A DNA stretch of 55,058 nucleotides. Source: an uncultured Nitrospira sp. (GTDB lineage: Bacteria; Nitrospirota; Nitrospiria; Nitrospirales; Nitrospiraceae). Made by a program: the position numbers and the translations under genes. The stretch lies in the NCBI GenBank assembly GCA_902500825.1, contig CABVRX010000026.1, positions 1 to 55,058 of the forward strand, written 5' to 3'. Positions 2,995 through 55,058 of the stretch are shown piece after piece; within the stretch, counting starts at the first letter, position 1, and each line of letters starts with the position of its first letter. The notes under the pieces were generated by a model. It saw nothing but the letters and a program-made list of their open reading frames with translations. It had not been told where the DNA came from and made no database searches.

Positions 2995-4102
2995 CTGATG
3001 CTCCGCCGATGACGGCTCCATCAACCATAATGGTGGGGTGTTGGGGCTCGATATCCCAGGGACCTCGCCATGACTGTACGGCGATCATTGTCCCCCCTTG
3101 CACTTCGAAAAGGTCTCCGGGTTGGTCCCCCGGCACGGCGGACTCTCCATGAGGCGAGTGCCGTTCACAGACGGCGAGCATGCGAAGAAGTTCCAAGAGG
3201 TGAAGGTCGCCTTGACCAAATGATGAGCGAGACGACCCTACGACCAATTGGAGGATATACCCGCGGTGTGCCAGGTGGCGAATGATGGAGGCCGTGACGG
3301 AGACCGCTTGTTCAAACAAGGCATCGTGGCTCACTGGCGCGACAGTCGGTAAGTACACGGTGGCTCGGCGTTGCTCTTCTGCTTCGGTTTCTCGGACTGT
3401 CAATTGGGACGTCCGCGCCGTCGTCGGCCAGTGAATGTTTCGCGAGTCATCTCCCGCTTGATACAGGCGCAGGTTGTACAAATCATTGCCATGACCTCGT
3501 CGATGGACGCTCTGTTCTGATCCAGCGGTGAGAAGACCTTGTAACAGCCTCTCGTCGATCGGCTTGATTTCCGGCCAGACAATAACAGTGTCTTCAATCT
3601 GATAAAAGGTTCGTTTCATGAAGAGGCCGAACGGAAACTCCGTCCCGACGCAGATCCCATCCAGCTGCAGCCGGCCACGCCGCGTGGCAACGAGAGAATA
3701 GGACACCAGACGGCTCGTGCCCGGAAGGAGTTGGGGAATCTCCAGACCTCGATCCACCTCACGACCGTCGCTGACGTCGAACAGCTTCAGTGAAAAGCTC
3801 GGAAGTTGTGATTTCCGATTTTTCGCGACTAACGTGGCCGTGGTCGGTTCATTCACCATGAGATGATCGGGAAGATGGCGATGGAATTCCAGCCGTCTCA
3901 AGCTGTGTTCCGCCACAATTCCTGAGATCAACACGAGACTCAGCATCATCGCGAGCAGCAGATAGAAAAGATTGTTGCCGGTATTGATCGCGGCGATGCC
4001 GATCGCCAGAGTAAAGAGCAGGAATTGAACGCCTTCTGAAGTCACACGTGTTGATCGGTGACGAAACAGTTGACGAAGGAGGGAAGGAAATTGACGCAGC
4101 AT
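2984..4102 (-). CDS. DUF58 family membrane protein
   Basis: A 372-residue protein with two N-terminal hydrophobic segments (about residues 26-65) and a soluble beta-rich region. The C-terminal DUF58 signature is clear: an arginine-rich stretch ending LRLYQAGDD, then RNIHWPTTAR and LTVRETE. DUF58 proteins have a von Willebrand A-like fold and sit in operons with MoxR ATPases, where they probably act in maturation or assembly of protein complexes at the membrane. It lies between moxR (36 bases downstream of moxR's stop) and tgpA (overlapping). Start ATG at 4102. The family assignment is firm, the function is not known. Confidence 0.9.
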   Translation of the reverse strand: MLRQFPSLLRQLFRHRSTRVTSEGVQFLLFTLAIGIAAINTGNNLFYLLLAMMLSLVLISGIVAEHSLRRLEFHRHLPDHLMVNEPTTATLVAKNRKSQLPSFSLKLFDVSDGREVDRGLEIPQLLPGTSRLVSYSLVATRRGRLQLDGICVGTEFPFGLFMKRTFYQIEDTVIVWPEIKPIDERLLQGLLTAGSEQSVHRRGHGNDLYNLRLYQAGDDSRNIHWPTTARTSQLTVRETEAEEQRRATVYLPTVAPVSHDALFEQAVSVTASIIRHLAHRGYILQLVVGSSRSSFGQGDLHLLELLRMLAVCERHSPHGESAVPGDQPGDLFEVQGGTMIAVQSWRGPWDIEPQHPTIMVDGAVIGGASDAV

Positions 4103-46764: not shown

Positions 46765-48147
46765 ATGCCGGACTCGACTCCTCCCTTCACGCTTGTCGAT
46801 GTGCCCGGCGGCGCGCCTTTGTTCGGCCACTTGGGTGCGTTCAAGAAGCGCCCGTTGGAGACGATGTCGGAGTGGTGGCGCCGGCATGGCGATGCGCTGC
46901 GCTTTCGGCTCGGGCCGAAGACTCTCCATCTCTTCAGTCATCCCGACCTCGCCGAAGAGATTCTGGTCCAGCAAGCCGACCGCTTTGTGAAAGTGTACGA
47001 CCCTCAGCGTCCGGTCGGCCTCGCGCTGGTTTTGGGCAATGGATTGGTGACCAGTTCAGGCGAAGTTTGGAAGCGTCATCGGCGCATCATTCAGCCGGTC
47101 TTTCACCGCTCTCGCATGGCGGTGATGGCCGATCGGATGGCCCAGGTCGCTGAGCAGCGGATTGCCGGTTGGGCTGTCCACGAAGGACAGCCGGTCGATA
47201 TTGCAGCGGAAATGATGCAGCTGGCACTCGAAGTGATCTCTCAGACCATGTTCACCACCAGCATGGCGCAACACATCGAGCAGATCAGCCGTGCGCTGCG
47301 CGTGAGTCTGAAGTACGCGTTCGACTCGTTTCATAACCCACTGCGCCTCCCCGGCTGGGTGCCGACTCAACGCAATCGTGAGTTTCGTTCTGTGATGCAG
47401 TTCATGGACGAGCTGATCTATGGACTGCTCGCTGAGCGGCGCCGCACCGGAGCAACACATGGGGATCTTCTTGATCTCCTGCTCCAGGCACGGGACGACG
47501 AGACAGGCGAGGGACTGACCGATCAAGAGCTGCGGGACCAGGCCTTGACGATCTTTGCGGCAGGACACGAAACTACCGCGAACGCGCTCGCCTGGACCTG
47601 GTACCTCCTCGCGACTCACCCAGAAGCAAAGGCACGGTTTCACGAGGAAGTGGATAGGGTTCTCCAGGGAAGAACGCCAACCGCCGACGATCTTCAGCGC
47701 CTCCCCTATACACGCGCGGTGTTCGATGAATCACTCCGTCTGTATCCACCTGCCCCGGCGGTCCAGCGCAAGGCCTCGACCAGTACCACAGTCTGCGGAT
47801 TGCCATTGCCGGCTGGGGCACTCGTTCTCATCGGTACATACAATCTTCATAGACACCCAGCCTTTTGGCGAGACCCCGAACAATTTCTGCCGGAGCGATG
47901 GCTGGATGACGAGCGACCGGCTGCCCGCTATGCTTATCTCCCGTTCGGCGCAGGACCGCGCACCTGCGTAGGAATCCATTTCGCCTCGGTGGAAGGGCCG
48001 CTTCTATTGGCCCTGATCGGCCGCCGCTATGATCTACAACTGGCTCAAAAGAGCATTGAGCCAGAACTCATGGTCACCTTGCGACCGAAAGGCGGCATTA
48101 AGATGATGCTCCAGCCTCGTCGGGTGCCGGTCGTATCAGTCGCGTAG
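46765..48147 (+). CDS. Cytochrome P450
   Basis: A 460-residue haem-thiolate monooxygenase without membrane anchor. The I-helix oxygen-activation motif AGHETT, the K-helix ExxR in DESLRLY, the PERW meander and the haem loop FGAGPRTCVG with the cysteine ligand are all intact. It needs an electron-transfer partner (ferredoxin and reductase), which is not encoded here. The sequence is closest in flavour to the CYP110/CYP102-like bacterial group that acts on lipids or terpenes; the substrate is not known. Confidence 0.95.
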   Translation: MPDSTPPFTLVDVPGGAPLFGHLGAFKKRPLETMSEWWRRHGDALRFRLGPKTLHLFSHPDLAEEILVQQADRFVKVYDPQRPVGLALVLGNGLVTSSGEVWKRHRRIIQPVFHRSRMAVMADRMAQVAEQRIAGWAVHEGQPVDIAAEMMQLALEVISQTMFTTSMAQHIEQISRALRVSLKYAFDSFHNPLRLPGWVPTQRNREFRSVMQFMDELIYGLLAERRRTGATHGDLLDLLLQARDDETGEGLTDQELRDQALTIFAAGHETTANALAWTWYLLATHPEAKARFHEEVDRVLQGRTPTADDLQRLPYTRAVFDESLRLYPPAPAVQRKASTSTTVCGLPLPAGALVLIGTYNLHRHPAFWRDPEQFLPERWLDDERPAARYAYLPFGAGPRTCVGIHFASVEGPLLLALIGRRYDLQLAQKSIEPELMVTLRPKGGIKMMLQPRRVPVVSVA

Positions 48148-48529: not shown

Positions 48530-48781
48530 CGAGTTTGAGCGGCGTCTTCGTCTGTCGAGAGCATTCCTCCAGGAGGGGAATGGGTTTCGGGGTGATCATA
48601 CGCGCCGTGCGGTTTATAGAAGGGAAGTCTAACTGGAGGGTTTCATCAGCGCACGACTAGTTACGTTGCGACGATGAAGAGTGCACGGCCCACACGAAGT
48701 GCGATTTGGAGTCAAATCTACTGGAGGTAATGAGTATCCACCGCGATTTGATCGAACGTGGCGGTACGCGCAAGCGAGGTT
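48530..48781. other. Spacer before the tRNA-Lys fragment
   Basis: No gene is supported. Short frames here read through the tRNA fragment on both strands, giving the familiar tRNA-derived peptides. It represents the DNA that lay downstream of the original tRNA-Lys gene. Confidence 0.5.
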
Positions 48782-48826
48782 TGGTGGGCCGTGTAGGGGT
48801 CGAACCTACGGCCCGCTGATTAAGAG
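48782..48826 (-). repeat. 3' fragment of tRNA-Lys (CUU), attachment site of an integrated element
   Basis: Read on the minus strand the sequence begins CTCTTAATCAGC (anticodon loop with CUU plus 3' stem), then has the T-arm GTAGGTTCGACCCCTAC and the 3' acceptor strand ACGGCCC with ACCA. That is exactly the 3' 45 bases of tRNA-Lys. The 5' half with the D-arm and GGGCCGT acceptor strand does not precede it; the sequence diverges at the anticodon loop. Such partial duplicates mark the end of an integrated element. Since the fragment points left, the element and the intact tRNA-Lys lie to the right. Confidence 0.88.
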
Positions 48827-49144
48827 GCCGTTTACGGCCATTTTCACAAGGGTTTGATCGGTCAACGGTTTCCCCGTTCTTTGGTTTTTCAGTCGGTTCC
48901 GGGAGCTCTATAGATTCGATGGGTTGGATAGAGTCTATGATTTTGATACCCTTCATCACGAATTATCACAGCTAAGCCCCGCCGATTTTGATCAAAACAT
49001 CGACACTCAGCAGTCGTTCCCCTAAAGACATCAGCAATATTCACGAGGGGCCAGTTCAGAGCTTCCCGAGCAACCACCACCATTCAAATATTCAAACATC
49101 AAATGCCACTTCCCCTTTACATTGGTCACTAGTCAACGGCATAA
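48827..49144. other. Non-coding left end of the island
   Basis: About 320 bases between the att scar and the HTH gene. The minus-strand frames seen here (48889-49083 and 48657-48959) have no ribosome binding site and no recognisable sequence. It may hold the recombination arm sites of the element. Confidence 0.35.
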
Positions 49145-49174
49145 TGTTTCACTCTGTTTCACTATGATTCAGTA
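49145..49174 (+). repeat. Three tandem 10-bp repeats, possible operator
   Basis: TGTTTCACTC (49145-49154), TGTTTCACTA (49155-49164) and TGATTCAGTA (49165-49174) follow without gaps, one helical turn each, and run into the ATG of the HTH gene. Such phased repeats would suit cooperative binding by the regulator they precede. No ribosome binding site fits between them and the start. Confidence 0.6.
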
Positions 49175-49419
49175 TGATAAAAGATCTGCGAATAGATGAG
49201 TTCTTGAATGATACAGACCTAAGGACACTTCTTGGAGTCTCTCGAACTACTTTGTGGCGCCTACGGAAGTACGAGGGATTACCGTTTGGGAAAGTAGGAC
49301 GCGAATTTAGGTACAGAAAATCGCAAATAGTTGAATGGGTTCAAAGCAACCAGTTCAAGCATCCTCAGCTCAAGCTTAATTTTGATACCAAAGGGAGGCC
49401 GCGAAAACAAATTAAGTAG
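49174..49419 (+). CDS. AlpA/MerR-like helix-turn-helix regulator
   Basis: An 81-residue protein. The DNA-binding fold reads LLGVSRTTLWRLRKYEGLPFGKVGREFRYRKSQIVEWV split over two strands and the recognition helix, as in AlpA and excisionase-type HTH_17 proteins. A basic tail (KGRPRKQIK) follows. In mobile islands such proteins regulate excision or the adjacent cargo. It lies 18 bases before vsr and probably controls the methylation operon, though that is inference. Confidence 0.78.
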   Translation: MIKDLRIDEFLNDTDLRTLLGVSRTTLWRLRKYEGLPFGKVGREFRYRKSQIVEWVQSNQFKHPQLKLNFDTKGRPRKQIK

Positions 49420-49437
49420 TATGACGACCCCAATGCA

Positions 49438-49854
49438 ATGGATATCTACTCCATCCAAAAACGATCAGAGGTAATGCGATGCGTCAAGGCGAGAGACACC
49501 GCTCCAGAGGTAACTGTACGGCGTATCCTTCACAAACTCGGATTCAGGTATCGATTACATGTGCCCAGTCTGCCAGGTCGTCCAGATATTGTTCTCCCAA
49601 AGCATAGAAGGATCATCTTTGTTCATGGCTGTTTTTGGCACTTGCATCGGCATTGCAAAGCGTCACGGTTGCCTAAGTCTAGACGCGCATGGTGGCGTAA
49701 GAAATTAAAAGGAAATGTCTTTCGGGACAGCATTGCATTTGAACAGCTTAAGGAACTGGGATGGAAGGTTGATGTCATTTGGGAATGCGAAACACAAAAA
49801 CAGCACAATCTGGTGTCCCGCCTTACTACGCTTATGGGAGTGCCTTTGACTTGA
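49438..49854 (+). CDS. vsr: Very short patch repair endonuclease Vsr
   Basis: A 138-residue mismatch endonuclease. The family pattern is intact: RSEVMRCVKARDTAPE, LPGRPDIVLPKHR with the catalytic aspartate at about 50, and FVHGCFWHLHRHC with the catalytic and zinc-binding His and Cys residues. It nicks next to T:G mismatches produced when 5-methylcytosine is deaminated. Its position ten bases before two C5-cytosine methyltransferases matches that job. Confidence 0.95.
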   Translation: MDIYSIQKRSEVMRCVKARDTAPEVTVRRILHKLGFRYRLHVPSLPGRPDIVLPKHRRIIFVHGCFWHLHRHCKASRLPKSRRAWWRKKLKGNVFRDSIAFEQLKELGWKVDVIWECETQKQHNLVSRLTTLMGVPLT

Positions 49855-49864
49855 TGGGTGATCT

Positions 49865-51148
49865 ATGTCGGTACCTAGATTGAGAAATGTCCATAATCGA
49901 AATCCAATTTGTGATATAGGCCGCACTCTTGCGACCAGCTTTGGGCAGGCTTGGGATGATGCCAAAACGTCAGACTCTGGCGCTATTGATGTAATTGATT
50001 TGTTCAGCGGTTGCGGGGGAATGTCGGCGGGGTTTTTAGCGGCGAATGCCATTCGTCCATCTTTTAAGCTAGTAGGTGCTGTCGATATCGATAAGACAGC
50101 AAACGAAACTTATTATGCAAATTTTGGTTTAAAACCTTTCACTGGGGATGTTTCTGTCCTTGCCCGAAGCACAACAAGACTCCACGAATTCCTTGATTCC
50201 TCTTTAAGAAGACCCAATTCTCCCTTGGTATTGATCGGGTGCGCACCCTGTCAGGGCTTTTCCTCTCACCGCAATGCTCAGGGAATTCGCGATATAAGGA
50301 ACTCGCTCGTTATCGATTTTGCGAATGTGGCTCGCCGTCTTCTTCCTGACGTCATACTCATGGAGAACGTTCCTGAAATTGTTACAGATCGATACTGGTC
50401 AATAACAAATTCTGTACGTAAGACTCTGGAGCGGGCCGGCTATTATGTAAGCATCTGTGTGCACAATATGGCAGAGTTCGGCGTCCCTCAGGAACGATTT
50501 CGAGCACTTCTTATTGCAATGAAGCAACCTTTCCAGTTGCCCAAGGGGTTCTTGAGGCGAAAAGATTTTTATACAGTTCGTGAAGCAATCGGATGGCTTG
50601 TTCCTGTAAAAGCGGGACAACGCCTCTCGTCTGACCCGATGCATTATTCAGCCCAGCATAGTCCATCAACAATAAGAACCATCAAGGCCATTCCAAAGAA
50701 CGGAGGAAGTCGTCCCCCTCATGCTGGTCCTCCGTGTTTACGGCGAATAGCGAACAAACAGGGACGGAGCGGTTACGATGATGTTTACGGGAGACTTTAC
50801 TGGGATCGTGCTGCCATAACAATAACCGCTTATTCTCGCAATCCGGCTAGCGGACGATTTATTCATCCGGAGCAGGATAGAGGGCTGACGGTTAGGGAAG
50901 CAGCGCTTCTACAAGGATTCCCTAGACAATACTGGTTCAATGGATCTCTTGACGAGTGTTTCCGTCAAATAGGCAATGCGGTGCCTCCTCCATTCTCGGC
51001 TTATCTTGCTATGCATGTCTTGCAGGAAGGATTTGGACGAGGACAGAGTACGCCTTCCAAAAACTTTTCTTTGGGAATTGAGCGTCCCCTGGGAAAATCT
51101 TTTTCCAGAATTATAGCTGCGCTCAAGTCGGGTAGCTTGACGCTATGA
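49865..51148 (+). CDS. DNA (cytosine-5)-methyltransferase 1
   Basis: A 427-residue C5-methyltransferase. Motif I DLFSGCGGMSAGF is at about residue 45, the catalytic loop APCQGFS places the nucleophile at Cys129, ENVPE (motif VI) is near 167, QERFR (motif VIII) near 209 and QIGNAVPP (motif X) near the C-terminus. The region between VIII and IX holds the target-recognition domain. The first 40 residues are an extension with no known motif. Its stop overlaps the next gene by four bases. The recognised sequence cannot be read from these data. Confidence 0.95.
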   Translation: MSVPRLRNVHNRNPICDIGRTLATSFGQAWDDAKTSDSGAIDVIDLFSGCGGMSAGFLAANAIRPSFKLVGAVDIDKTANETYYANFGLKPFTGDVSVLARSTTRLHEFLDSSLRRPNSPLVLIGCAPCQGFSSHRNAQGIRDIRNSLVIDFANVARRLLPDVILMENVPEIVTDRYWSITNSVRKTLERAGYYVSICVHNMAEFGVPQERFRALLIAMKQPFQLPKGFLRRKDFYTVREAIGWLVPVKAGQRLSSDPMHYSAQHSPSTIRTIKAIPKNGGSRPPHAGPPCLRRIANKQGRSGYDDVYGRLYWDRAAITITAYSRNPASGRFIHPEQDRGLTVREAALLQGFPRQYWFNGSLDECFRQIGNAVPPPFSAYLAMHVLQEGFGRGQSTPSKNFSLGIERPLGKSFSRIIAALKSGSLTL

Positions 51149-52293
51149 AAACAAGAGCTATCGCCATCGATGTTTTTTGCGGAGCAGGAGGGCTTTCCCT
51201 TGGCCTCTGCAAAAGCGGTTTTGAAGTCGGATTTGCAATCGACATAAATAGGTATGGCGTAGAGACTTACGGCAAGAACTTTTCCCATCCTGTAATGTGT
51301 GGCGATGTGCGCCAAGTAAACTTTCGCAAGCTCATTTCTGAAGCAGGACTCTCAGTTGAAGAAATCGTACTTTTGGCTGGAGGGCCACCGTGTCAAGGAT
51401 TCTCTATTCAGAGACGGGGACCGGACAGCGACTTGAGGAATAATCTCGTATTCGAATTCTTGCGCTTAGTCAGAGATATCCAGCCCAGATTTTTTCTCTT
51501 GGAAAATGTACCTGGCTTAAAAAACGTTCGAGGTAAGGATTATCTCCATCAACTCATTGGCGCGGCAACGAAATTAGGCTATCACTGCCATACGCAGATT
51601 CTAAATGCAGCTGATTTCGGGGTGGCCCAAATCCGCAAGCGGCTCTTTGTGGTAGGAGAAAGGACCCAAGGTAGTCTTCTATTCGAATTTCCCAAGCCTC
51701 TCGTGCGACAGGCGAATTGGATAACAGTTCGAAAAGCGCTGAAAGGTTTACCTTCTCCTCCTGACGACTACACCCCGCATCCATTAGTTTTCAATCACCA
51801 AAAAAGCAGAATGTCGAAACTCAACATAAAGAGAATTTCCTATGTCCCCCAAGGTTGTGGTTGGGAGCATATACCAAAGTCATTAAGAGTACCTTGTCAC
51901 GAGCCAGGCTCGGATAGGATTGGGCATAGATATGTTTACGGAAGACTCAGCTGGCAAGATCCTGCAGGGACTATCACAGCGAGATTTGATAGCTTTACGC
52001 GAGGGAAATTTGCACACCCTTCCGAGGATAGATCAATAACACTGCGTGAGGGCGCTCGGCTTCAGTCGTTCCCAGATGATTTTGATTTCGTAGGACCCAA
52101 GGAAGAAATTGCAGCACAAATTGGAAATGCTGTTCCGCCGCTTCTCGCAGAAGCCATTGGAAGGGCCATTCTGATTGCATATGAAAAGGCTGAAGGGAAG
52201 TTCCGCAGAGAAGTCAGACCATCAACAAGATCAAGCCAAGAAACGGTTGCTGTCATGTTGCGCCAACCCAAGCTCTCCGGATACGAGGGTTGA
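51145..52293 (+). CDS. DNA (cytosine-5)-methyltransferase 2
   Basis: A 382-residue enzyme that differs markedly from its neighbour. Motif I is DVFCGAGGLSLGL at residue 9, the catalytic GGPPCQGFS has Cys83, ENVPG lies near 120, QIRKRLFVVG is motif VIII, and QIGNAVPPLLAEA is motif X. All catalytic motifs are complete. ATGA overlap with methyltransferase 1 implies coupled expression. Two non-identical C5 enzymes in one operon suggest an asymmetric target with one enzyme per strand, or two target sites. Confidence 0.95.
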   Translation: MKTRAIAIDVFCGAGGLSLGLCKSGFEVGFAIDINRYGVETYGKNFSHPVMCGDVRQVNFRKLISEAGLSVEEIVLLAGGPPCQGFSIQRRGPDSDLRNNLVFEFLRLVRDIQPRFFLLENVPGLKNVRGKDYLHQLIGAATKLGYHCHTQILNAADFGVAQIRKRLFVVGERTQGSLLFEFPKPLVRQANWITVRKALKGLPSPPDDYTPHPLVFNHQKSRMSKLNIKRISYVPQGCGWEHIPKSLRVPCHEPGSDRIGHRYVYGRLSWQDPAGTITARFDSFTRGKFAHPSEDRSITLREGARLQSFPDDFDFVGPKEEIAAQIGNAVPPLLAEAIGRAILIAYEKAEGKFRREVRPSTRSSQETVAVMLRQPKLSGYEG

Positions 52294-53526
52294 TATACTA
52301 TTCAGCAAGCTGACGCAATCTGATTCCAAGAAAGAAGGGCGCACAGTGCTGCAACAGAGTGTGCGCTCGTCTTTTGTCGTTCCCAAATTCGTGTATTCGA
52401 ACGACTCTCCGGGATAAACAAGGACGCAAGTTTTAGTTTCATACGTGTGAGCATGTACTAGTATCTGGTATACGTCAGCTTCCTGTGGCTTGCCAGCAAA
52501 CTCCTTGTATTTTCCATCTAGGACACACAAGTTCTCTGAATCGGAAACGAGTGCGATATCAGGTTTTGCTCTAAACCCCCTTTCATCTGCACCAAACACA
52601 TATCGTTTAGAATCTCTCCAGTCTATAACGTTAACATTGGATCCCGATTCATTTAGTGCTTTCTTGAGAGAATGCCTCAGCGAATCCTCAAACAACTTCT
52701 CTAGATTTACAAACCAAGAAACAGGAACGGTAACCATCGGTGTAGGGCCAATACCAAAATGTAAGGCGAACAGACGTGCATAGGAGAGAAGCCTTCTAAC
52801 TTGATCGGATCTTGCCTCCTCTTCCACTGCACAAAAACAGTCATCCATTCTCTCGTAGGACCATCGAGACATTTCTGGCCAAGCCACATCTTCAAAAAGT
52901 ACTCCCATTACTCGTATTCTCTCAAGTAGTGAACTGGTCTCAGTTGACTTTTCCCAACAAGATACAATGCCGTCAATGGCATGAATGCCTAACCCTATCA
53001 ACCTGTTTATTGGTAGGTCAGCTGTTAACTCATTTGATGTGTAGGCGAGTAGATCGCCGCGTCCCAGTGCACGAAGGTTTATTGTCCTGCCGATATGAAA
53101 TTTGCCCTTGGGCAGCGGACTCTCGTGAGAACGGAGAACATAGGATCTCGCCCTTCCAGACAGAAGATATGCAGAAAGGTTTTCGAGAAATTGCTCCACA
53201 ATATCTTTGAGGATTTTTCCTGTCTTATCCACCACTCCAGTAGTCTTTAATAGCTTAGCGCTGAGATCTCCCGCAGATATCAGCATCCCCGCGAGCGCAC
53301 CGGGTATTTTTTCCTGAACGCGAAGAAGCTTTCCCCCTATCACGGCTTGTCCAACATAGCAGGAAGCTCTTATAAAGCACTGGGCCTTCCCCTTCCTTTC
53401 AAGTGACACTATCCCGTTTGAGGATAGCTTCCAAAAATCATCATTAGATTCTAGAAATTCATATTGCCATTCGCTTAGAGGTAATGAACTCCGTTCTTTA
53501 GCGGTAATTTCCTCTGTTGGCAACAC
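52231..53526 (-). CDS. McrC-like restriction nuclease subunit
   Basis: A 431-residue protein of the McrC family (PF10117 type). The C-terminal PD-(D/E)xK nuclease is visible as KPDIALVSDSENLCVLDGKYKE split around Asp323, Asp337 and Lys339, and the N-terminal beta-rich part matches McrC domains that contact the AAA+ partner. It starts with GTG two bases after the ATPase stop. Its 3' end runs 63 bases into the end of methyltransferase 2 on the other strand. Family is clear, DNA target unknown. Confidence 0.86.
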   Translation of the reverse strand: MLPTEEITAKERSSLPLSEWQYEFLESNDDFWKLSSNGIVSLERKGKAQCFIRASCYVGQAVIGGKLLRVQEKIPGALAGMLISAGDLSAKLLKTTGVVDKTGKILKDIVEQFLENLSAYLLSGRARSYVLRSHESPLPKGKFHIGRTINLRALGRGDLLAYTSNELTADLPINRLIGLGIHAIDGIVSCWEKSTETSSLLERIRVMGVLFEDVAWPEMSRWSYERMDDCFCAVEEEARSDQVRRLLSYARLFALHFGIGPTPMVTVPVSWFVNLEKLFEDSLRHSLKKALNESGSNVNVIDWRDSKRYVFGADERGFRAKPDIALVSDSENLCVLDGKYKEFAGKPQEADVYQILVHAHTYETKTCVLVYPGESFEYTNLGTTKDERTLCCSTVRPSFLESDCVSLLNSISTLVSGELGLAQHDSNRFLA

Positions 53527-53528
53527 GG

Positions 53529-54362
53529 TTACTCGCCAATTGAAAAATTAGGGTCTTGCCATGGATAATTGCTTGAAATTGTTTCGTAGAATGGGTGTGG
53601 TTGGAGAAGAGGCCTTCTTATTATGGGTAATATTCTTTGAGTCCAGAGTCTATAGAGATGTGGTTTTTCCGTATCGATCCCTGCAAACATTCCGTGTCCA
53701 AAAGGCATAAGAGTCTCGTAGTCCTTGAGCTTAGCGCAGGCTTCGAATAATCCACTAATTCCGGCAATCGCCTTCTTTGGAATTGAGGTAACCTCAAGCA
53801 TTTCCGTGAGTTGCCCAAGATCTGGTGGGCAAGATATCACTCGAAGCCTTCGAATCAGCGCGTCATCTAATTCAAGAGCGGAACGGTCCCTCGGATTGAA
53901 GGTTGAAAGGATAATTAAGTTGTCGGCAATCTTTGCGGGACGGCGAGTGTACATCGTAAAAAACATTCTTTCTCGGTGTTCGATATAAGTCAGCAATTCG
54001 CCTAGTACGGATGGCAAGTTAGCACGAGTAAATTCTTCGATAAGCAGAATATAGGTCTTATCTTGGTCACTTCTTGCCAACTCGTTCCATTCTAGTAAGA
54101 CTCCAAGTTCGGTTGAAAATCCTCCAGATGGAGTTGCCCGATACCCCTCAATGAACTCTTCATAGGAGTAAGAAGGATGGAACTGTATCTCTCGCACCAT
54201 TAATGGGTCAGATGCTAAACGTTGAGCAGCAATATTTGCGATGAACGATTTCCCAGTTCCAGGAACTCCCGCCAACGCTACAATGCTCCTACGGCCGTAC
54301 AGTTTCGCGGTTTCAACAACCTCGGCTACTTTGGCTTCAGTGGCCGGACCATAGCTTTGCAT
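53529..54362 (-). CDS. McrB-like AAA+ ATPase/GTPase subunit
   Basis: A 277-residue AAA+ protein. Walker A GVPGTGKS is at residues 32-39, the McrB hallmark QFHPSYSYEEFIEGYR at 60-75, Walker B YILLIEE at 104-110, sensor STFNPRD at 153-159 and an arginine pair at 171-172. It lacks the N-terminal DNA-binding domain of Escherichia coli McrB. ATG 54362 forms a TAATG with the upstream stop, so I prefer it to ATG 54386. It would translocate or remodel DNA for the McrC-like nuclease. Confidence 0.9.
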   Translation of the reverse strand: MQSYGPATEAKVAEVVETAKLYGRRSIVALAGVPGTGKSFIANIAAQRLASDPLMVREIQFHPSYSYEEFIEGYRATPSGGFSTELGVLLEWNELARSDQDKTYILLIEEFTRANLPSVLGELLTYIEHRERMFFTMYTRRPAKIADNLIILSTFNPRDRSALELDDALIRRLRVISCPPDLGQLTEMLEVTSIPKKAIAGISGLFEACAKLKDYETLMPFGHGMFAGIDTEKPHLYRLWTQRILPIIRRPLLQPHPFYETISSNYPWQDPNFSIGE

Positions 54363-55058
54363 TACACTAAATCCCTTGGTAAGCATGCGGCATCAGAGAG
54401 ATATGCTGCATAATCACGAATGGACAGGAAATCCCGATGTCGAATAGGAGTTTGAATGGCTGCTTCTATCAGGCGGAGATACTGCGGGCGAATACAATAG
54501 TAGCCTCTGACAGGACTATCCTTTTTATCAGTTAGCAAAGTCCAACCAAATGAAGCGAGAGAGATTAGGGGGATAATCCTATCATCTTTAGAAACCCCGC
54601 TAATAGTCTCATCGCCTAGGTCAGCCATATCACCAGATTTTCTGAATAATCTGATCTGCCTTATGGAATCATAGAGGGTCCTAAGATCCTTACTATGAAA
54701 AACTGCTCTGTTTAACTCATCTGAACTGATTTTGAAGTCTAACTCCATCATCGCCATCCAAATAAACCTAAATGGAAACACATGCATTGAGTTATCATAC
54801 TTCATACCCGCATCCGTGGGATTTCTTAGCTGGCATGCGGCTAACAACAAGGCAGCATGTCTGGCAATCAATATCGCGTTTTGCGAGTTTAGCAGCGGTA
54901 GAAATCTTTTGAGGGCGAGCCCTAGTGTGGTAAACCAAACTATTCCATCTTCCTGGAATATCAGCCCCGCGGTTTCATACAACTGTTTCGTATCTCGATA
55001 TCTCGACGTCCCCCCATATTGAGTAGCAGCCAGAGTTAGAGTCCGGGGACTACTATAG
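54362..55058 (-). CDS. Unrecognised protein of the restriction operon (5' end outside window)
   Basis: The frame is open without a stop from the window edge to 54362, at least 232 codons; a TTG at 54982 is only an internal codon. The sequence begins in mid-gene with TLAATQYGGTSRYRDTK and includes LYETAGLIFQEDGIVWF and a helical middle. I do not recognise the family. Its stop is fused to the ATPase start (TAATG). Since that ATPase has no DNA-binding domain, this protein may supply target recognition; that is inference from context. Confidence 0.7.
   Translation of the reverse strand, partial: YSSPRTLTLAATQYGGTSRYRDTKQLYETAGLIFQEDGIVWFTTLGLALKRFLPLLNSQNAILIARHAALLLAACQLRNPTDAGMKYDNSMHVFPFRFIWMAMMELDFKISSDELNRAVFHSKDLRTLYDSIRQIRLFRKSGDMADLGDETISGVSKDDRIIPLISLASFGWTLLTDKKDSPVRGYYCIRPQYLRLIEAAIQTPIRHRDFLSIRDYAAYLSDAACLPRDLV

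Follow-up and report, generated by a model that had tools for sequence, protein, structure and literature searches.

Genomic islands targeted to tRNA genes are defined by Islander (PMC4383910), whose criteria include a length of 2–200 kb and the absence of overlap between the displaced tRNA fragment and any coding gene's Pfam domain. In such islands an intact tRNA gene is accompanied by a 3′ fragment in the same orientation, the gene of a tyrosine integrase is located inside the island by the tRNA, and crossover may occur in the anticodon loop (site A). The island described below shares with the Islander islands the intact tRNA, the like-oriented 3′ fragment, the placement of the integrase and the anticodon-loop class of crossover (PMC4383910). 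It differs in having been split over two contigs by an insertion sequence (IS), and in a cargo not previously described in this setting. The conclusion that it further exemplifies a kind of event that is thoroughly known, and that recurs at the same gene in related bacteria, is well supported.

A second comparison concerns the cargo. The signature of the LlaJI restriction-modification system is two m5C methyltransferases together with McrB- and McrC-like restriction proteins (PMC1459862). Both restriction subunits are required, and the McrB-like subunit confers the specificity through its N-terminal half (PMC1459862). In LlaI and BsuMI, a variant of this arrangement, there are three restriction ORFs and the McrB-like protein is short, at 337 and 343 aa respectively (PMC1459862).

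The window, i.e. the whole stretch of DNA analysed, is contig C26 (55,058 nucleotides) of a Nitrospira genome of 3.79 Mb in 50 contigs (G000), the ends of which were checked by search. When complemented, the 45 bases at 48782–48826 of the window reproduce the 3′ portion of tRNA-Lys(CTT) without mismatch, beginning at the first base of its anticodon loop and ending with CCA. The features at this boundary are:

46765–48147, plus strand: cytochrome P450 gene, chromosomal left flank (Pfam PF00067, E 8e-97; synteny in 15 relatives)

48780–48826 (tRNA part 48782–48826), minus strand: att core, displaced 3′ part of tRNA-Lys(CUU), left boundary of the island (exact match to C45:3578–3624, where the tRNA-Lys is intact)

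48836–48990, no strand: conserved left-end arm, probably an attP arm (71–87% identity beside the fragment in relatives)

The exact match between window 48780–48826 and C45:3578–3624 is 47 bp in length (E ~1e-17 in a search of the same genome), comprising tRNA positions 32–76 plus two bases. The sequence-only reading had recognized the 45 bases as the 3′ end of tRNA-Lys(CUU), and its coordinates and orientation were correct. It had also claimed that no 5′ half was adjacent; ARAGORN called no tRNA at 48782–48826, and the 5′ half is therefore absent. Only one extra copy of a tRNA-Lys fragment was found on searching the genome. The sole ORF covering the fragment is a mechanically called one at 48657–48959 (minus strand). 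Gene content and base composition shift at the fragment just as that reading had stated. The P450 gene lies on the left, with genes for an HTH protein, Vsr, methyltransferases and McrBC on the right, and the G+C content is 0.537 over 1–48779 compared with 0.46 over 48827–55003. No 6.2-kb stretch to the left of the fragment has a G+C content below 0.503.

An intact tRNA-Lys(CUU) with the identical 3′ end had been predicted, and it is present on contig C45. There ARAGORN identified tRNA-Lys(CTT) at 3580–3655 and tRNA-Arg(CCG) at 3698–3774, both on the minus strand; this was the only intact copy of tRNA-Lys(CUU) recovered from the genome. The integrase that had been expected beside it is a tyrosine integrase encoded at C45:2464–3576 (plus strand; Phage_integrase PF00589, E 9e-40, plus a SAM-like domain). 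It lies on the island side of the tRNA gene, with its stop codon (3574–3576) three bases before the tRNA-Lys CCA. Conserved residues of the catalytic region are present in the alignment, and the protein scores far below the cut-off of the Xer equivalog models, indicating a non-Xer tyrosine integrase. The integrase gene is preceded by that of an HTH_17 protein (2109–2474) similar in size to an excisionase, and a second HTH_17 protein is encoded at 1400–1594. In Nitrospira UBA2082 and RSF5, integrases of 90% identity are found at the same position by the tRNA or its fragment. In the terms used by Islander, the displaced fragment reaches the 3′ end of the tRNA, the intact tRNA has the identical end in the same orientation (both on the minus strand, with the fragment downstream by synteny), and a non-Xer tyrosine integrase is located between the two.

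We searched 79 genomes of the genus with the tRNA pair, and compared the loci of the best 29 relatives with the window and C45. The site is empty in 15 relatives (L016, L018, L019, L021, L022, L024, L025, L027, L031, L032, L035, L037, L039, L040 and L043), i.e. the P450 ortholog is followed within about 1 kb by an intact tRNA-Lys and then by tRNA-Arg, with only intergenic DNA between. Uninterrupted tRNA genes had been anticipated in relatives that lack the island, and they directly follow the P450 ortholog. An artificial join of the window up to 48779 to C45 from 3578 aligns across the junction in nine of the 15. Comparison of this kind is the classical way to test for an insertion. Since the empty sites show the flanks joined, the C45 tRNA can be placed to the right of the window. 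The earlier proposal, that the fragment is the boundary of an integrated island, is supported by the fragment itself, the intact tRNA with its abutting integrase, and the empty sites.

The window ends in a repeated sequence:

55000–55003, no strand: target-site duplication ATCT (repeated at C45:55–58)

55004–55058, no strand: first 55 bp of a multicopy IS, probably IS1380-type (the same 52–55 bp end contigs C10, C17, C32 and C50; related end in L104)

Correspondingly, contigs C13, C27 and C35 start or end with 51–55 bp of the 55-bp sequence that opens C45. These two 55-bp sequences form imperfect inverted repeats (CGACGTCCCCCC.. and CGACATCACCCC..), and are thus the opposite ends of a single multicopy IS, the body of which is missing from the assembly. 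Note that at least four copies of this IS break contigs in the genome, with ends corresponding to window 55004–55058 and C45:1–54 (L003). The related end in Nitrospira L104 (87% identity over 55 bp) adjoins a DDE_Tnp_1_4 transposase, which is typical of IS1380; the IS is probably of this type. To the left of the IS the window flank ends with ATCT, and to the right the C45 flank begins with ATCT. Other 4-bp flanks are shared between C32 and C13 (AGAG), and between C50 and both C35 and C27 (GTGG); by chance about 0.08 4-bp matches are expected among the 20 possible flank pairs. C10, C17, C32 and C50 were rejected as left partners of C45, their 4-bp flanks not matching ATCT. C50 was also rejected as the continuation of the window, since the same IS end lies at its terminus and not at its start. 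When the window up to 55003 is joined to C45 from 59, leaving one ATCT, a frame of 276 codons on the minus strand (gene X) is open through the junction.

The IS ends, the ATCT duplication and the open frame together link the window to C45, and argue strongly that window, IS and C45 are contiguous. The length of the island would then be 6224 + 3523 bp, i.e. about 9.7 kb, plus the missing body of the IS. The prediction that the intact tRNA would lie to the right of the window is thus upheld by the synteny of the empty sites, the matched target duplication and the open frame, but the gene is on a separate contig, with no physical join to the window.

It could be proposed that the window fragment and the C45 integrase belong to two islands in tandem, the cargo and the integrase having arrived separately. 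Tandem and remnant islands do occur in relatives, with two fragments in G065, and a 0.6-kb remnant together with an integrase on a separate contig in G016; moreover the G+C content differs between the two arms. However, the ATCT duplication and the 276-codon frame link the arms across the IS, the genome has only one extra fragment, and the window's left arm has a homolog in that of the G008 island, which carries a 90%-identical integrase. We therefore consider this arrangement very unlikely. The C45 arm (G+C 0.511) is less extreme in composition than the window arm (0.46), and the island may be composite.

We are almost certain that the fragment is the left end (attR-type) of a single, small island in Nitrospira that was integrated site-specifically at tRNA-Lys(CUU) by its own integrase, carrying restriction-modification cargo and extending from the window through the IS into C45. 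The tyrosine integrase of the island would have recombined the element's copy of the tRNA-Lys(CUU) 3′ half with the chromosomal tRNA-Lys, within the 47-bp core beginning in the anticodon loop. By action of the integrase the element would have restored a full tRNA at the right end, and the original 3′ half would have been displaced to the left end of the island, there to form the window fragment. One gene of the restriction module is split by the IS.

The cargo within the window arm is:

49174–49419, plus strand: HTH_17 protein of excisionase/AlpA-like size, 81 aa (PF12728, E 7e-10)

49438–49854, plus strand: Vsr mismatch endonuclease (PF03852; TIGR00632 above cut-off)

49865–51148, plus strand: C5-cytosine methyltransferase 1 (PF00145, E 5e-55; TIGR00675)

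51145–52293, plus strand: C5-cytosine methyltransferase 2 (PF00145, E 4e-65; TIGR00675)

52231–53526, minus strand: McrC-like restriction component (PF10117 McrBC, E 1e-20; NCBIfam McrC model below cut-off)

53529–54386, minus strand: McrB-like AAA protein, 285 aa (PF07728, E 2e-17; McrB model E 4e-22, below cut-off)

54362–55003, minus strand: 3′ part of gene X, likely a restriction specificity subunit, cut by the IS (5′ part at C45:59–238; open frame across the joined flanks)

Judged by its sequence, the cargo is a putative restriction-modification cassette resembling the LlaJI/BsuMI-type systems. The likeness is one of gene content, with two m5C methyltransferases together with McrB-like and McrC-like proteins in common, and the short McrB-like protein (285 aa) fits the three-ORF variant (PMC1459862). 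Unlike those systems the island adds Vsr, and the genes for the HTH protein, Vsr and the two methyltransferases on the plus strand are convergent with those for X, the McrB-like and the McrC-like proteins on the minus strand. A further difference is gene X itself, which is interrupted by the IS and without detectable homolog in the collections searched (296 genomes of the phylum and genome_contigs). X matches no family, apart from a weak match to RE_AlwI (E 0.07). It is likely to be the specificity subunit of the restriction module; by analogy, the role held in LlaJI by the N-terminal half of the McrB-like subunit may fall here to X. As the IS splits gene X, restriction has probably been lost from the cassette while methylation may have been retained, so that the island would methylate and not restrict. 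Plasmid systems with the order methylase, AAA, McrC-like also exist, with annotation of McrC on one of three, and the McrC-like protein had no match in viral_contigs. Upstream of gene X on C45 there is an ORF of 264 aa (L003:436–1230, minus strand) with no Pfam, PADLOC or NCBIfam match.

The island might instead be a prophage that has become defective, or an integrative conjugative element; islands at the same tRNA in other genomes carry a TrwC relaxase and TrwB (G004) or a Zot-domain protein (G059). By contrast, a family scan detected no relaxase, T4SS/secretion or phage structural gene among the main recovered ORFs of the present island, and we think it very unlikely that it is of either kind. 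Since no conjugation or phage structural genes are recognizable, transfer of the small integrative island between cells would need a helper. Finally, there is practically no chance that the fragment is a coincidental match or a degenerate tRNA pseudogene unrelated to the island, for while tRNA remnants occur in genomes generally and no tRNA is detected at the site, the match is exact over 47 bp and oriented as predicted, its start falls in the anticodon loop, an integrase adjoins the intact copy, and the relatives with both flanks joined at the fragment point rule it out.

The integrated island has counterparts elsewhere in the genus. Fragment and intact tRNA-Lys(CUU) share a contig, separated by 0.6 to 27 kb, in nine other genomes (G003, G004, G008, G016, G021, G040, G059, G065 and G070). 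The integrases at these sites range from 90% identity to unrecognizable, and at several of the sites they are only distantly related. Among named Nitrospira, integrase identity is 90% in UBA2082, 90% in RSF5 and 63% in 4_1_May_SF_Bin59; these islands share the target and the 45-bp fragment with that in the window, and wherever their left end is available the left arm is related as well. Integrases that belong to this group but are more distant adjoin tRNA-Lys(UUU), tRNA-Ala, tRNA-Arg or tRNA-Pro in Nitrospirota and Deltaproteobacteria.

The cargo of the other tRNA-Lys(CUU) islands differs from that of the window island, and is largely defence-like where Pfam gives an answer. It comprises HerA plus SIR2 in G008, GmrSD plus a methylase in G059, and Dcm (C5-methylase), Vsr, Z1 and AIPR beside the relaxase in G004. 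With fragment and intact tRNA in nine relatives, varied cargo and several types of integrase, tRNA-Lys(CUU) is a recurrent insertion hotspot in Nitrospira. We lean towards the broader view that it is a genus-wide hotspot of defence exchange used by related and unrelated integrases, at which the cargo, much of it anti-phage, is swapped while the integrase end and left arm stay fixed. Our literature search, which had most subscription journals outside its scope, found no paper naming both Nitrospira and tRNA-Lys.

Nitrospira are free-living nitrifiers that are central to nitrification, and a recurrent insertion site has now been identified in them at which defence genes are gained and lost. The exact ends have been fixed for an island that the assembly had split, and the tRNA-Lys(CUU) site can be scanned in new genomes for further defence cargo.

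The left arm is 71–87% identical beside the fragment in L086/L108, L090, L092, L094, L095 and L109, and its first 56 bp are 91% identical in L088. This conservation beside the fragments of several islands suggests that it is an attP arm, and possibly an arm site for the integrase. We note that the core of the arm, ACAAGGGTTTGATCGGTCAACGGTTTCCCCGTTC, is common to islands with different cargo, and contains a small AACGG/CCGTT hairpin.

The islands of the relatives also vary in arrangement. That of G004 (G004:C9, L096/L097) is 27 kb in length, includes TrwB, and has its integrase near the fragment end and not the tRNA end. At G065:C1:2329935–2350980 (L091/L092) two fragments precede the intact tRNA-Lys, corresponding to two islands in tandem, with lengths of about 17 and 4 kb. 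The 0.6-kb remnant at G016:C16 2446–3121 (L088) consists of the fragment, the left arm and the 3′ end of a related integrase, followed by the intact tRNA-Lys.
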